From a virus, in the IMG/VR virus record IMGVR_UViG_3300012936_000064, positions 1 to 35,711 of that record: a DNA stretch of 35,711 nt; one strand, given 5' to 3'. The translations under genes and the position numbers were made by a program. The notes under the pieces were generated by a model that was not told the DNA's origin, did no database searches, and saw only the letters and a list, made by a program, of their open reading frames with translations. Positions 2-13,247 of the stretch are shown piece after piece. The stretch's first letter is position 1; every line of letters begins with the position of its first letter.

Positions 2-2455
2 GGACATTGGGAAAAGAATGTATGGCCATTAATGGAACAAGTTACTCGTTTGTACGAAGCAGAACTTACACAAAATCAAATTAATACTATTTTTGCAAAC
101 GCAGAAACAGTAGCAGGAAAAGATGGAGGAAATCTAACTGCACTAGGTAAAGCAGGCCAAGTAACTTCTAAAGTTTCAAAAAAATTACAAGCAGAAATTG
201 ATAAACTTCTTAAAGCCGCTCAAAATTCAGGACCTATAAAAAACTTTGATCAACAATTTGAAAAATTAAAAGCACAACTGAAAACAAAACTTAGCGGTAA
301 CCCAATGGGTCAAAAGATACTTACGATGGTTGACAGTTATGGTGGCTTTGCAAAAGAAAATCCTGCCAAGGCGGCATTTGTAATTGGTGCAATGACATCT
401 GTACTTGCGTTTGCAAGTGGTGGTGTTGTAAGTGGTGCGGCAATTGGTTTCTTTTTGAAACTTGCAAGTAATACACTCAAAGGTGATAAACTTTCAACAG
501 CAGTTGGTAAATCTGTAAAAGGTGCGGCAATTGGTGCGGCGGCAGGCGCATTAGGAGATGCTTTAGACAAGTTATTACCTGCAGAAATTACAAACACATT
601 TGTTAATGATGCGTCAGGCGAAATTGATATAACACAACTAGACGGTATGGATGCAACAAGCATGGCTGATCTAGATGCTGATGCGGCAAAAGAACTAATA
701 CAAACAAGAAGTGCAATGGAAGAATTAGTAGCACGAGGTAATCTAGACGCAGAAGCAGAGAAAATTTTACAAGGACAACTTGATCAGGTAAATGATAAGA
801 TACGTGAAATAGGCGGTGGTGCTTCGATAAATGATACTGTTGATGCTATGCAAGACGAATTTGGTATTAAAGGCACAGATGTTGACTTAGAAAAAACTAC
901 ATCAACATCAAGTACTGGTCAAGAAGAAGTAGTAGACACAGAAGTTGTTGCCAACCTTGATGCAGAACAACTTAATGACGCAGGAATAAATTCTGCAGAC
1001 TTTCCAGACAATGCATGGATAACAAACAACACACAAAAATTATTAGATGCTGGCTTGTCAGAAGAAGACATTGAAGCACTACAAAATACACAAGGATTTA
1101 ATAGAGCATTAGCTCAAAAAGAATTCTTAGGTACAAATATATCTGCTTCAGATAAAATTGTTGTTGGAGATAGTTTAAAAGTAGAAGGCGTACCAGATGA
1201 AGTTGAAGTTGGACAAACATTTAAGTCGACAGTTAGTAAAACATTACCAGACGGAACTGAATATACTGCTTTGACCGATACAATGATTCAAGGTGTTGAT
1301 GCAGACGGAAATCCTGTTTATCAAATTAAAAGTGTGTTTGTACAACCTAATCCATTTACAGAAAATCTAGACAAGGCTTTAGAAAATTTACCAGAAGATC
1401 TTAGAGATGAATTGTATGATCAAATATTCAAAGGATCAGTTTCAGGATCAATGGAAACAGCAGTTGACGATGCGGCGCAAAATATTGCAAAAGCCGCGGC
1501 GGCAGTTGCACTAGGAGGTGCTCTAGCACAATCAGAAGTTAAGCCAGCAGAAGCAAAAGAGTCTATTAATTATGCAGAAGCATATGCATATTTGTATGAA
1601 GAATACGAACAACAACTAGACGAAATTAATATTGGAGATCTTGCTAAAAAAGGTGCTAAGAAACTTGGCGGTGCTATGGACAAAGCAGGTGACGCAGTCC
1701 AGGCAGGAATTGGAAAAGCAGTAAAAGGTGTCAAAAATGTTGGTAGACAAGTTGGTTTAAAAGTTACAAAAGAAAAACTAGCTAAAGCACACAAAGCGGC
1801 AGGCTCACCTACAGACACTGCAAGTATTGTAAACATATTAGCTGACAACGGTTTGAGTGATGAGCAAATCGGTGCAATCGGTGCAGAAAGCAAAATAGAA
1901 TTGCCAGTACCAACAGCAAGTGCAGGTGCTAAAGATGATGCACAAGCACAAGCAGGTGGAGATACTCAAGCACAAGCAGGTGGAGATGATGCACCAGCAC
2001 AAGGTGGCGCACAAGGTGGCGCACAACAACAAGCAGGCGGAACAGTTAAAAAAGGTGATGTAAGAAAAGCAAACGGTAGAGAATACAAATGGATGGGTGC
2101 ATTGTGGGTAGACACAGGTACAAATAAACCAATTGGTATTGAAGCAAGTGTAAAAGCAGGTTTACCTAATCCAAACATTGATCCAATTATTGCCGCGGCT
2201 AAGAAAGATCCAGAAATGGCAAAAGCAATCAAAGCGGCATTGATAAGTGATCCTGCTAAAGCGGCAAAAACTACACCACAACAAAAAGCAACTGGAACAG
2301 ATGGACAGGCGGCTACACCTCCAGCTCCAAAACCAGCGGCAACAAAACCACCAGCTACAAAACCAGCGGCACAAACACCACCACCTAAAGGTAATTTAAA
2401 ATTTCCTACAGGTACTCCAGCCGCACCAGCGAAAGCGCCAGCAGTACAAACTTAA
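2..2455 (+). CDS. Large Ala/Gly-rich virion-type protein, 5' end missing
   Basis: Product not recognised by function. The frame is open to the left edge (codons from base 2, Trp-rich), and the first ATG at 32 has no Shine-Dalgarno sequence, so the true start lies outside the window. At least 817 residues are present. Numbered from that ATG, residues about 110-180 are hydrophobic and Ala/Gly-rich (for example AFVIGAMTSVLAFASGG), like membrane-active or internal virion proteins. The middle is acidic; a second Ala-rich helix lies near 485-505; residues about 545-585 are basic and helical. The C-terminus is low complexity: QAQAGGD repeats, a compact GREYKWMGALWVD segment, then a Pro/Ala/Lys/Thr tail. 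Similar proteins occur beside structural genes in marine T4-like phages; a role as internal head or ejected protein is inference. It converges with the minus-strand gene, the two stop codons overlapping at 2452-2455. Confidence 0.7.
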   Translation, partial: GHWEKNVWPLMEQVTRLYEAELTQNQINTIFANAETVAGKDGGNLTALGKAGQVTSKVSKKLQAEIDKLLKAAQNSGPIKNFDQQFEKLKAQLKTKLSGNPMGQKILTMVDSYGGFAKENPAKAAFVIGAMTSVLAFASGGVVSGAAIGFFLKLASNTLKGDKLSTAVGKSVKGAAIGAAAGALGDALDKLLPAEITNTFVNDASGEIDITQLDGMDATSMADLDADAAKELIQTRSAMEELVARGNLDAEAEKILQGQLDQVNDKIREIGGGASINDTVDAMQDEFGIKGTDVDLEKTTSTSSTGQEEVVDTEVVANLDAEQLNDAGINSADFPDNAWITNNTQKLLDAGLSEEDIEALQNTQGFNRALAQKEFLGTNISASDKIVVGDSLKVEGVPDEVEVGQTFKSTVSKTLPDGTEYTALTDTMIQGVDADGNPVYQIKSVFVQPNPFTENLDKALENLPEDLRDELYDQIFKGSVSGSMETAVDDAAQNIAKAAAAVALGGALAQSEVKPAEAKESINYAEAYAYLYEEYEQQLDEINIGDLAKKGAKKLGGAMDKAGDAVQAGIGKAVKGVKNVGRQVGLKVTKEKLAKAHKAAGSPTDTASIVNILADNGLSDEQIGAIGAESKIELPVPTASAGAKDDAQAQAGGDTQAQAGGDDAPAQGGAQGGAQQQAGGTVKKGDVRKANGREYKWMGALWVDTGTNKPIGIEASVKAGLPNPNIDPIIAAAKKDPEMAKAIKAALISDPAKAAKTTPQQKATGTDGQAATPPAPKPAATKPPATKPAAQTPPPKGNLKFPTGTPAAPAKAPAVQT

Positions 2456-2682
2456 AAGTAAGGTAATCCGCTTTTCTTAGTTGTTTCTAGATTTTCTTTA
2501 ACCATATCGGATATAAGTTTTCGATCGCCTGGCTCCATCATAAAGGCTTCTTCTAATGTTATGCCTCCACGCATGTGCCACATTAATCTCAAGATTTCAG
2601 ACCTGAGCTGTTTGCTCTGCCCTTCAAGATTTTGTACTTCTTGTAGGATCTGTTCAACGGGCCACTGAACGATCCTTATGCG
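2452..2682 (-). CDS. -1 frame extension of the gp26-like protein (gp51/T-like domain)
   Basis: Downstream of the gp26-like stop, the -1 frame is open for 76 codons and ends at TAA 2454-2452. It has no ATG near its beginning; the first ATG comes only at its 34th codon, inside the conserved-looking part. The product has a short coiled helix (EQILQEVQNLEGQ), then LMWHMRGGITLEEAF, then a D-R-K-x-I-x-x-x-V-K-E-N-L-E-T-T-K-K helix ending SGLPYF. Related small domains occur next to gp26 in marine T4-like phages. Entered by slipping at 2688-2682 it would give a 366-residue fusion (290 zero-frame plus 76), matching the logic of lambda gpG-gpGT and P2 gpE-E' tail chaperones. It could instead start at a non-AUG codon, but I see no convincing one. 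Confidence 0.7.
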   Translation of the reverse strand, partial: RIRIVQWPVEQILQEVQNLEGQSKQLRSEILRLMWHMRGGITLEEAFMMEPGDRKLISDMVKENLETTKKSGLPYF

Positions 2683-2688
2683 AAAAAA
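2646..2688 (-). promoter_or_regulatory. Programmed -1 frameshift signal
   Basis: Read on the minus strand: heptamer T_TTT_TTC at 2688-2682 in the correct phase, a 6-nt spacer (2681-2676) that includes the zero-frame stop TAA, then a hairpin at 2675-2646. The hairpin pairs GGATC and GTTCA with TGAAC and GATCC, 10 base pairs with a single bulged A and a 9-nt loop. Slip site, spacer length and stem are all in the range known to drive -1 frameshifting. Confidence 0.75.
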
Positions 2689-3551
2689 GTTGATTGGTCG
2701 AATGTAATAGGCACTGAAAACTTTTCAGGTGCACCAGCTTTTAATTGTTCTTCGTTTGCTTCTACATCCATTGGAGGAATACTAAATGCTTCCTTTTGTA
2801 TCTCAACATGTTTTTGTAATGCAGAGAAAAATTTCTTATCACTGTTTTCTAAGAATTCTGAAATAAATTGTTTTTCAGTAACTTCTTCTGCTTGTTCACC
2901 ATCTAGTATTGTAATTTTTACAACACTATTAACAACCATACCTAAAGTTATATCTCTTATTTTTCTAAAAGTTTTATCAAATAATTCTAACTTTTTAGTT
3001 TCTTCCATATCATCAGTGTTAACAATATGTAACAAACGTTGTTCTTCAAAAGTCTGCATACTTACTTTAGTAAACTCTTGATAGTTAAGAGGGCGTATTT
3101 CAACTTGTAAGTTTTCAAATGTAAACGTAGGATTAAATTGTGCGTTACCGTATCTTTCTAAAACCTGTCGGAGGTCAATCTGATAATCTGCAGATATTTC
3201 AGTTTTAGGTGCGGTGGCAGAAATGTCCATTTTTTCGCCATAGGTTGCAATTCTAATTGCAACAAGACATGCATCTAGATCTATAGCAGGCATTTTCCAT
3301 GCATTTTTAATATTAGGAATACAACTTTGAACTAGGTCACATGTTGCTTGACCGTTTAAAAGTGCATCTGGTGTTTTTAAACTTAATTCATCTTTTGCTG
3401 TCATAGCAAAGACAGGTAGCTCTTTGTTGTCAGGCATATCTAATGATCCTTCTGGATAGTAGACGCCTTTACTTGGTAGAGCCATATATATTTTAGGTTG
3501 TCTAAAATATTTCTTAAGTGGGTTATGTCCACTTGGCTTTATTTCTGGCAT
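2676..3551 (-). CDS. 26: gp26-like baseplate hub / tail-assembly protein (zero-frame product)
   Basis: A 291-residue protein starting at the ATG at 3551, chosen because a perfect GGAGG (3561-3557) lies 5 nt upstream; the frame could extend 36 codons further up but that part crosses the promoter. Residues about 15-110 carry the block typical of marine T4-like gp26 proteins: an LPSKGVYYPEG segment, then AMTAKDELSLKTPDALLNG, then a Cys- and Ala-rich helix. T4 gp26 (208 aa) is a baseplate hub assembly factor; with gp51 it is a candidate chaperone of the tape measure. Here it sits back to back with the tape-measure-like gene. A late promoter lies 47 nt upstream. The last codons hold a slippery run followed at once by TAA, and the reading frame continues in -1, so a longer fusion is expected. 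The family call rests on recalled sequence patterns, not on a search. Confidence 0.72.
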   Translation of the reverse strand: MPEIKPSGHNPLKKYFRQPKIYMALPSKGVYYPEGSLDMPDNKELPVFAMTAKDELSLKTPDALLNGQATCDLVQSCIPNIKNAWKMPAIDLDACLVAIRIATYGEKMDISATAPKTEISADYQIDLRQVLERYGNAQFNPTFTFENLQVEIRPLNYQEFTKVSMQTFEEQRLLHIVNTDDMEETKKLELFDKTFRKIRDITLGMVVNSVVKITILDGEQAEEVTEKQFISEFLENSDKKFFSALQKHVEIQKEAFSIPPMDVEANEEQLKAGAPEKFSVPITFDQSTFFA

Positions 3552-3562
3552 ATTTTCCTCCG

Positions 3563-3605: not shown

Positions 3606-3632
3606 TACGCACTTTATAGGAATCTGTTGTTT

Positions 3633-6098
3633 ATGACTGTAAAAGGTAGAATAGGCCAAGAAGAAGTTGAATTAGAAGACGCGGCCACGGAATCCACACT
3701 CCTTAAGATCCTAAGCGCCATGGAACGTGGTGGAGGAGCAGGAGGCGGTGGTGGTGGTAAAGACCAAAAAGAAGCCAAGAAAAACTTGGTGCAAATGGCA
3801 CAGCAAACTAAGAAAACTACTAAAAGCCTAGACGAATTAGAAGAACAAGCTGAAGAAACTAGCAATGCTTTGATGAATGGATTTGGTCATCTCAAGCAAG
3901 GCTTTAGCAATATGGCTATGGAGTTTCTGTCTGGTTCAGACAGATTAAGTGAATTTTCATCACATGTAACAGGTGTTATATCTAACATTCCAATTATTGG
4001 TGGTGCATTGGGCGGAACAATGCAACTATTTGTTAGTGTAATTGATCAAAACATTGACGCATTTAGAGAGTTATCAGGTGTTGGTATTGACTTAGGTGAT
4101 AGTCTATTAAGTGCTAGACAAGCATCAGCAAGAGCAGGTTTGAGTTTAGAAACATTCAACCAAGTAGTAACACAAAACTCTACAGGATTAGCTTTATTTG
4201 CAGGAAGTGCCAGTGAAGGGGCAAAACGTTTTTCACAGATAAGCGGAATAGTACAAAAGTCAATGGGACCAACTTTTAGTAAGTTAGGTATGACTATGGA
4301 AGAAACTGCTGAGTACACAGCAGAATACTTAGAATTACAAACTAGATTAGGTAGAGCTCAAACTATGAGCAACAAGGATCTAGCAACAGGTGTTAGCACA
4401 ACTGTTATGGAAATAGACAAACTTGCAAGAGTTACAGGTAAACGTAGAGATCAATTATTAAAAGAGATGCAAGAGAATTTAACTGATAAACGTATTAGTT
4501 TGTTTATGAGTACATTAGATGAAGCGGCACAAGCAAATGTTAACGGAGTGCTACAAATGGTAGGTGAAAACTCTCCGATGATGAAAGATGCAATTACTGA
4601 AATGATTGCAACAGGTGGTGTACCGGTTGGAGACTTTGGAAAAAGTTTAGTACGTTTGAATCCTAATTTAGGAACAATGGCGGCAGGACTTGCTGACGGT
4701 TCAGTAACACAAGCTGAATATATGGCTGAAGTTAGAAAGACTGCTGAAAGTGTTGCTAACATGAGTGAAGAAGAAAAGAAACTAGCAGGTTTATTAGCGG
4801 CACAAGGTAACGAAACAATGGCCGCAACAATTGAAATGCAAAAAATGCGTAATGCAGGTGCTGGATTAACAGAAGTACAATTAGCACAAAAGCAAGCAGA
4901 GAAAACTAGAAATAAAGAACTAGCCGACTTTGAACGTCAAATACAACAAGTTAAAAACGCAATTATGGATGCACTTATTAAAACAGGAATCTTCGATGCG
5001 GTTGAAAAAGGATTAGCGGCATTAGTAGGAGCATTTGGTGGAGAGAAAGGTGTTGCAGGATTAGAGAAAGCACTTACACCATTTACAAATTGGATAGGAG
5101 CATTCATTAAAGAATTAGAAGGTGCTGAAAATCCTATGGATGTTATTAAAAAATATCTTAAAGACGGATTAAGCAAACTTGGCGGTATGATTAAACCTAT
5201 GATTGCAAGTGCATTTAGCGGACTTGGTAGTATGATTATGGGTGCAATCTTTGGCGGAGGAGGAGATGATACAACTACCACTACTGAAGAAACTCCAGGA
5301 GAATCAGGTGGAGAATCAAAAGGTAAAGGTAGTGGAGGCATATTTGTTGGCTTAGACAGTGCATTAAGTAAACTTGCAGGTCTTGTTGTTGCAGGTGGTG
5401 TAGTGTATCTTGCTATAAAAGGATTTCAAAAATTACTTATGGGATTTGCTAATCCAACAGTGATAATAGGTGCAGGTGTACTAGCAGGATTATTAATTGG
5501 TACTGGTGCGGCAATTAGACTTGCAGGTGAAGGAATAAGTGCGGCAGGCGATGGCGTTAACAAAATGGCCGAAGGTGTTGAACGTATGTCGCAAGTTAAA
5601 GACACTGCGAATCTAAAAGATGTTGCAAGTGCATTGGGCGAGTTAGGTAGTGCTATGTTGTCTTTATCCGCTGGCGGTGTGATTGATAGCATTATGAGTT
5701 TCTTTGGTGCAAAATCACCATTTGATAAAATGGTTGAAGGAATCAATAAATTTAGTAATATTGATGCAAATTCGATTAGTAATTTAACAGGAGCAAGTAG
5801 CGGACTTGCTAATCTAAGAGCATTTACTGATGGATTAGAACCTGATAATGTTAAAAAGTATGCTAGTGCTATTGAAGACCTTGCAGATGCAATGAAAGAA
5901 TTAAATGAAGCACTTGCTGATCAAAATAAAGGTAGAAAAGAGAGCGGATTTGCAGTTGCAGACATGCTCAAATCTGGATCGTTAGGCGGTGGCGGAGGGC
6001 TAAGTAGTAGTGATATGACACAATTAATTGACCTTATGCGAGAAAATAATCGCTTAACAGGGCGAATATTAGCTAATTCCGGACCGGATATATATTAA
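3633..6098 (+). CDS. Tape-measure-like tail length protein (gp29-type role)
   Basis: About 821 residues from the ATG at 3633; a TTG at 3627, 5 nt after an AGGA, is a possible alternative start. After an acidic N-terminus and a Gly-rich run (GGGAGGGGGG) comes a long helical body with many Gln, Lys and Glu residues. Between about residues 500 and 660 there are Gly/Ala-rich hydrophobic segments (SAFSGLGSMIMGAIFGG; VVAGGVVYLAIKGF; VIIGAGVLAGLLIG), then an amphipathic helix region and a Gly-rich linker before the last 30 residues. This layout (long helices with membrane-like segments) is typical of tail tape measure proteins. T4 gp29 is about 590 aa; a longer protein would imply a longer tail. Its position opposite the gp26-like chaperone candidate and just before the portal supports a tail role. 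The family name is inferred from composition and context. Confidence 0.7.
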   Translation: MTVKGRIGQEEVELEDAATESTLLKILSAMERGGGAGGGGGGKDQKEAKKNLVQMAQQTKKTTKSLDELEEQAEETSNALMNGFGHLKQGFSNMAMEFLSGSDRLSEFSSHVTGVISNIPIIGGALGGTMQLFVSVIDQNIDAFRELSGVGIDLGDSLLSARQASARAGLSLETFNQVVTQNSTGLALFAGSASEGAKRFSQISGIVQKSMGPTFSKLGMTMEETAEYTAEYLELQTRLGRAQTMSNKDLATGVSTTVMEIDKLARVTGKRRDQLLKEMQENLTDKRISLFMSTLDEAAQANVNGVLQMVGENSPMMKDAITEMIATGGVPVGDFGKSLVRLNPNLGTMAAGLADGSVTQAEYMAEVRKTAESVANMSEEEKKLAGLLAAQGNETMAATIEMQKMRNAGAGLTEVQLAQKQAEKTRNKELADFERQIQQVKNAIMDALIKTGIFDAVEKGLAALVGAFGGEKGVAGLEKALTPFTNWIGAFIKELEGAENPMDVIKKYLKDGLSKLGGMIKPMIASAFSGLGSMIMGAIFGGGGDDTTTTTEETPGESGGESKGKGSGGIFVGLDSALSKLAGLVVAGGVVYLAIKGFQKLLMGFANPTVIIGAGVLAGLLIGTGAAIRLAGEGISAAGDGVNKMAEGVERMSQVKDTANLKDVASALGELGSAMLSLSAGGVIDSIMSFFGAKSPFDKMVEGINKFSNIDANSISNLTGASSGLANLRAFTDGLEPDNVKKYASAIEDLADAMKELNEALADQNKGRKESGFAVADMLKSGSLGGGGGLSSSDMTQLIDLMRENNRLTGRILANSGPDIY

Positions 6099-12875: not shown

Positions 12876-13247
12876 ATGAAACATAAACATTTAGTTGTAC
12901 GTGCAGAAGTTAGCAAACCAATAGTTAATAAATCCAAAGCTCGTAAATTCTTACGTAGTTTAATAAAGAAAATATCAATGAAAGAGTTATACGGTCCAGT
13001 TGCAAGTTATTGTAAAATGGAAGGCAATAGAGGTATTACTGCGTTTGCAATAATAGAAACAAGTCATGTTGCTATGCACATTTGGGATGAACAAAACCCT
13101 GCACTTGTACAATTTGATGTATATAGTTGCAGTGACTTTGAGCCAAATACAATAGTTGATCATTTACAAGTAATGGAACCTGTAAAGATTGATTATAAGT
13201 TTTTAGACAGAGAAAATGAATTTATTGAAGTATTAGATACTAAATAA
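12876..13247 (+). CDS. speD: S-adenosylmethionine decarboxylase-like pyruvoyl enzyme SpeD
   Basis: 123 residues, the size of bacterial class 1 SpeD proenzymes. These cut themselves at a serine to make a pyruvoyl group and decarboxylate AdoMet for spermidine synthesis. Compared with the well-studied Thermotoga enzyme (Ser63, His68, Cys83), this protein has Ser63 and His68 at the same numbers (TSHVAMH) and Cys85 in DVYSCSDF. The residue before the cleaved serine is Thr62, where Glu is usual, and there are two extra residues before the cysteine. N-terminal MKHKHLVVRAEV is the expected first strand. speD is a known auxiliary gene in some marine T4-like cyanophages. Some phage and bacterial SpeD relatives are reported to act on arginine or ornithine instead, so the substrate is uncertain. 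No strong Shine-Dalgarno is visible. Confidence 0.85.
   Translation: MKHKHLVVRAEVSKPIVNKSKARKFLRSLIKKISMKELYGPVASYCKMEGNRGITAFAIIETSHVAMHIWDEQNPALVQFDVYSCSDFEPNTIVDHLQVMEPVKIDYKFLDRENEFIEVLDTK

Follow-up and report, generated by a model that had tools for sequence, protein, structure and literature searches.

A conserved slip site and the probable −1 frameshift of a tail assembly chaperone gene in T4-like phages

Some tailed phages are known to make their tail chaperones by frameshifting, as in the gpG/gpGT pair of lambda and the E/E' pair of P2. Does a T4-like phage distant from T4 itself make a gp26-like protein in two forms, from one gene, in the same way? The question is raised by IMG/VR record IMGVR_UViG_3300012936_000064, a 35.7-kilobase virus record analysed whole (the window; all coordinates are positions within it). 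T4-like portal, prohead protease, major head protein and baseplate wedge genes are present. The phage is T4-like and probably a jumbo phage, and the window belongs to a jumbo-phage branch far from T4. On its minus strand a gp26-like gene ends at the heptamer T_TTT_TTC, with an open −1 frame beyond. In all likelihood this is where the phage encodes its pair of tail assembly chaperones, with a short and a long form made by −1 frameshifting at that heptamer.

Two overlapping frames and their products

The elements on which the argument turns are all on the minus strand:

2676..3551, minus strand: short form (G-like, gp26-like), 291 amino acids, identified by PF12322, phrog_150 and AlphaFold/BFVD
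3553..3562, minus strand: Shine-Dalgarno region (GGAGGA), 5' of the ATG at 3551, read directly
2682..2688, minus strand: slippery heptamer T_TTT_TTC, in phase, read directly and conserved in relatives
2676..2678, minus strand: zero-frame stop TAA, 3 nucleotides past the heptamer, read directly and in relatives
2452..2682, minus strand: T-like −1-frame domain, 76 codons plus stop (stop 2454-2452), a conserved protein in relatives with a three-helix model

The open reading frame of the short form runs from ATG 3551 to TAA 2678-2676, with the 3' end ...TCA ACT TTT TTC GCA TAA. A first-pass annotation had placed the heptamer in phase at 2688-2682, the zero-frame stop just after it, and a 76-codon −1 frame lacking a usable start beyond; direct reading bears out all three, the −1 frame extending from 2682 to 2452 with a TTG at 2592, 30 codons in, as its earliest ATG, GTG or TTG. 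A slipped product would have 290 + 76 = 366 amino acids. The number of TTTTTTC strings was rejected as evidence, as 13 occur in the window against 16.4 expected and there is no enrichment; the bare string not being rare, the case rests on phase and conservation.

By profile and predicted fold, the short form is a member of the T4 gp26/gp51 family (PF12322, phrog_150), folded like its other members. It scores 36.9 bits against Pfam PF12322 (T4_baseplate; E 4e-9, curated cut-off 24.5) and matches phrog_150 at 2.5e-14 in a profile search. Its AlphaFold model (mean confidence, pLDDT, 85) matches BFVD models named 'Baseplate hub assembly protein, T4-like', at E 4e-22 and a template modelling (TM) score of 0.83. 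A nucleotide search of phages gave zero matches; tblastn with the short form reached 88 phage records, mainly jumbo phages such as RaK2, 121Q, PA5oct and Atu_ph07, and 33 IMG/VR loci also match it. The −1-frame domain is modelled as three helices (pLDDT 88), is 19-61% identical to its counterparts in relatives and matches the −1 domains of jumbo phages at E 2e-23.

In the proposed mechanism, most ribosomes would stop at TAA 2676 and release the 291-residue short form. At T_TTT_TTC a minority would move back by one base, with the two Phe tRNAs pairing anew to TTT TTT, pass the zero-frame stop and complete the 366-residue long form with its helical T-like tail. If the lambda gpG/gpGT pair and what has been reported of T4-like phages are a guide, the mixture of short and long forms would then cover the tape measure protein and bring in subunits of the tail tube. 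Slippage in cells, the ratio of short to long form and the chaperone function are the parts of this scheme that we infer.

The likeness to gpG/gpGT is an analogy at the level of arrangement. Lambda slips at G_GGA_AAG, whereas the window has T_TTT_TTC, and in systems of the gpG/gpGT type the tape measure gene follows directly downstream, whereas the tape-measure-like gene of the window is adjacent but divergent:

3627..6098, plus strand: tape-measure-like neighbour gene, 823 amino acids, divergent, with homologues beside the chaperone gene in loci L006-L030

Its putative identity is drawn from its composition and from the annotation of RaK2.

The central idea, of T4-like tail assembly chaperones with a two-gene alternative, is already published, judging from papers that cite Vladimirov, Gautam & Davidson 2022 (Virology 566:9). 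These credit that study with poly-T slip sequences in the short-form genes of T4-like phages (PMC12846349, PMC10885494), and one of them, on PRFect, adds that some T4-like phages have a short gene and a longer fused gene instead of frameshifting (PMC10885494). The chaperones concerned are probably of the same protein family as that of the window. A conserved −1 frameshift has also been proposed for the chaperones of Vandenendeviridae and Andersonviridae (PMC12846349), likewise at a poly-T site, though the motif (GTTTTT) and the phage group differ from those of the window.

The most durable rival accepts the frameshift and makes its products parts of the baseplate hub instead of tape measure chaperones. 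Database names of the 'baseplate hub' kind favour it, as do the T4 genetic studies cited in PMC3004832, which put gp26 in the hub; we regard it as improbable.

The slip site across related loci

Loci for comparison were collected through the upstream protein, never through the slip site. The 133 loci comprise a main survey of 128, four isolates with the heptamer, and FEC14; they include near-identical contigs and hold 114 distinct junctions. L047, which has no readable junction, stands outside the set; L031 and L098 are truncated, and the S-PM2 stretch does not include gene 26. The set spans jumbo phages, cyanophages (S-SSM7 and 79 IMG/VR loci), rhizobial phages (RL2RES, phiN3) and Straboviridae of Aeromonas (Ah1) and Vibrio (PG216 and the related D490), together with Melnitz-1, Stenotrophomonas phage Ps15, SCTP-2, XacN1 and CM1.

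T_TTT_TTN stands in phase in 129 of the 133 (125 of 128 in the main survey, plus the four isolates), and the zero-frame stop follows 3 nucleotides past the heptamer in 103 of 125. The codon that supplies the first T of the heptamer encodes Ser, Asn, Asp, His, Ala, Arg, Gly, Tyr or Thr, with T as its third base throughout. Given the amino acids, the chance of that T together with TTT for the first Phe is about 1e-11 over 21 clusters below 50% identity, a figure that takes the clusters to be independent of one another. The first zero-frame residue past the heptamer differs among loci (Ala 58, Gly 43, Val 11, and others), while the −1 frame has Arg there in 120 of 129 loci. The peak of codon-position entropy lies on zero-frame third positions upstream of the heptamer and on −1-frame third positions downstream. 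The variable zero-frame residue, the kept Arg, the shift in entropy and the conserved heptamer together locate the switch between frames at the heptamer.

What comparison among relatives shows is the slip site, the phase in which it lies, and that the −1 frame is under selection as a protein. The first-pass annotation had claimed a programmed −1 frameshift that fuses a gp26-like protein to a T-like domain, and had proposed alignment across relatives as a check. On the slip site that alignment comes out in its favour, with the heptamer in phase as above and the −1 frame conserved while its third positions vary; together with the switch of phase, this supports the claim strongly.

A different origin for the second domain would be reinitiation after the gp26 stop, giving a separate small protein, as annotators assume for the cyanophage 'gp51'. 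A start codon does lie within 15 codons after the slip in 108 of the 129 loci, 8 of them with a stop-start overlap, and the slip-less isolates K361, BX-1 and Cygsa01 (L129, L131, L132) have the overlap TAATG. In fourteen loci, however, the window among them, no ATG, GTG or TTG occurs before codon 21 of the −1 frame, and reinitiation leaves unexplained both the conservation and phase of the heptamer and the near-invariant −1-frame Arg, which is encoded upstream of any start. We regard this origin as quite unlikely. Slippage of RNA polymerase on the T run, yielding mixed mRNA, is still harder to sustain. The run of six Ts exists, but it is just six long in 125 of 129 loci, and other T6 runs in the same open reading frames are mostly in another phase (30 against 4); polymerase slippage would need neither a fixed codon phase nor the X_XXY_YYZ form, and both are kept. 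Decay of the gene, with the −1 frame a mere relic or an error of sequencing, might be suggested by the want of a start in that frame, but is scarcely credible and already contradicted by the same layout in more than 100 loci with third-position variation in that frame.

Several results weigh against a frameshifted chaperone pair. A PDB fold search with the short-form model gave no match below E 0.001, and the fold matches of the −1-frame domain are weak, among them the BFVD matches to chaperones of Moogle and BonaeVitae. The stimulatory RNA structure lacks conservation. A free T protein is possible as well for most cyanophage-type loci, where a start codon stands a few codons past the slip. 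Four isolates, Ackermannviridae or similar (Vibrio K361, BX-1, Cygsa01 and FEC14), lack the slip run. In K361, BX-1 and Cygsa01 the TAATG overlap falls where the −1-frame T domain begins, which suggests coupled reinitiation; FEC14 (L141, Ackermannviridae) has neither slip run nor TAATG. Relatives of this kind had been named in advance as the case that would tell against frameshifting. They exist, but the three that are placed in the tree described below, K361, BX-1 and Cygsa01, form one derived branch (99/98); the tree does not include FEC14.

L047 (LR756511.1), a 595-kilobase uncultured phage, has a partial short-form match that covers 36% of the RaK2 query at 28% identity, and neither a slip run nor a clear −1 domain can be read at the end of its frame.

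RNA structure after the slip site

A local hairpin follows the heptamer in the window:

2646..2675, minus strand: local hairpin 3' of the slip site, a possible stimulator in this genome only, by fold energy; not conserved

Folded alone, this element reaches −13.3 kcal/mol (z = −2.8 against dinucleotide shuffles), so the hairpin of the first-pass annotation does fold, yet it is private to the window. As a conserved stimulator it was rejected, with 57.8% of cells paired in the 11 nearest distinct sequences, the same as in shuffles. An alternative stem of 11 base pairs begins, like the hairpin, 5 nucleotides after the heptamer and takes its 3' arm from further downstream. In the same 11 sequences it pairs 78.5% of cells against 70.7 (standard deviation 1.9) in shuffles, and versions slid along the sequence reach 51% at most. 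Six of its pairs are altered on both sides, and its covariation score is 0.372 against 0.237, a value attained in 0 of 500 shuffles. All 11 pairs form in four sequences and 10 in two; the window has only 5. These values are suggestive of a covarying stem in six relatives, given that the stem was itself derived from the consensus and so starts with an advantage.

Loci L007 and L015 have a local hairpin instead, as in the window, and L009 and L010 have neither stem. Across the window (2627-2675) and L006, L011, L012, L014, L016 and L017, the stems after the slip have a common 5' start and differing 3' partners. Many cyanophage sequences fold strongly one by one, in folds made without control windows; the consensus fold of the cyanophage group has few pairs, slightly above shuffles, and no common stem is claimed for it.

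The two genes of T4 and the history of the family

T4 gp26 and gp51 are of the same Pfam family as the short form of the window, and T4 has two paralogous genes in place of the frameshift. Both proteins match nearly the whole of the PF12322 profile, gp51 with residues 1-201. In addition gp51 has a short C-terminal tail, matched by phrog_634, the family of the 63-residue cyanophage 'gp51', and the cyanophage −1 domains match this tail at 97% in hhalign. Judged by sequence, gp26 and gp51 are thus paralogues, gp26 the counterpart of the short form and gp51 that of the long form, the same fusion encoded in one frame. The earlier view that T4 keeps the two functions in separate genes holds as to the two genes; the split, however, is between short form and long form and not between two domains, gp51 being a full gp26 paralogue.

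For the window itself the match of the −1 domain to the gp51 tail is weak (hhalign 62%, E 7e-5 pairwise). All five gp51 proteins rank above all gp26, again weakly, and a profile search of the domain gave no phrog_634 match. Its assignment as T-like is made from position, frame and intermediates.

In a tree of 44 short-form domains, gp26 and gp51 of T4, 44RR, AB-Navy97, KP15 and JSE form one branch (98/94), in which gp51 is a single branch (100/100); the inner order of the group is unsure, given the long branches of 44RR and KP15 gp26. It adjoins phages that keep the frameshift, namely Straboviridae Ah1 and PG216, the related D490, and Ps15. With one duplication inside Straboviridae in the tree, the simplest reading is that the frameshift is probably ancestral and that this duplication gave the short and the long form a gene each. 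No T_TTT_TTC stands at the end of T4 gene 26.

gp51 and gp26 stand in tandem on one strand in Klebsiella phage KP15 (L136, 2501-3795), the order to be expected if a tandem duplication were recent; the two genes are divergent in T4 and 44RR.

A wider account can be offered tentatively, as one slightly more likely to be wrong than right. The frameshift may have been ancestral in all T4-like phages and replaced once, inside Straboviridae, by duplication into short gp26 and long gp51. An Ackermannviridae-like branch would have given it up for a stop-start overlap, and the stimulatory stem would have kept its 5' start while its 3' partner changed even among close relatives. Of this, the duplication is probably already in print; the breadth, the third route by stop-start overlap and the turnover of the stem may be new.

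A comparison of 26 genomes (Sullivan et al. 2010, PMC3037559) found cyanophage gp51 to lack the first ~200 residues and gp51 to be missing only in Aeh1, with no mention of frameshifting. In the cyanophage read here, this old puzzle finds an explanation: the missing part would be gp26 itself, reached through the frameshift. In Aeromonas phage Ah1 (L128, about 2705-2884) an unannotated −1-frame T domain follows GAT TTT TTC GAC TGA, which likely explains the report on Aeh1. For T4-like phages that lie outside the T4 branch, the locus offers a specific mechanism by which proteins still annotated 'baseplate hub' or 'hub assembly catalyst' would be expressed, and their annotation should join the two frames. 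It is also a clear example of recoding replaced by gene duplication.

Elsewhere in the window, just after the major head protein gene, lies an S-adenosylmethionine decarboxylase-like gene (12876-13247, plus strand; phrog_3125, 3e-13).
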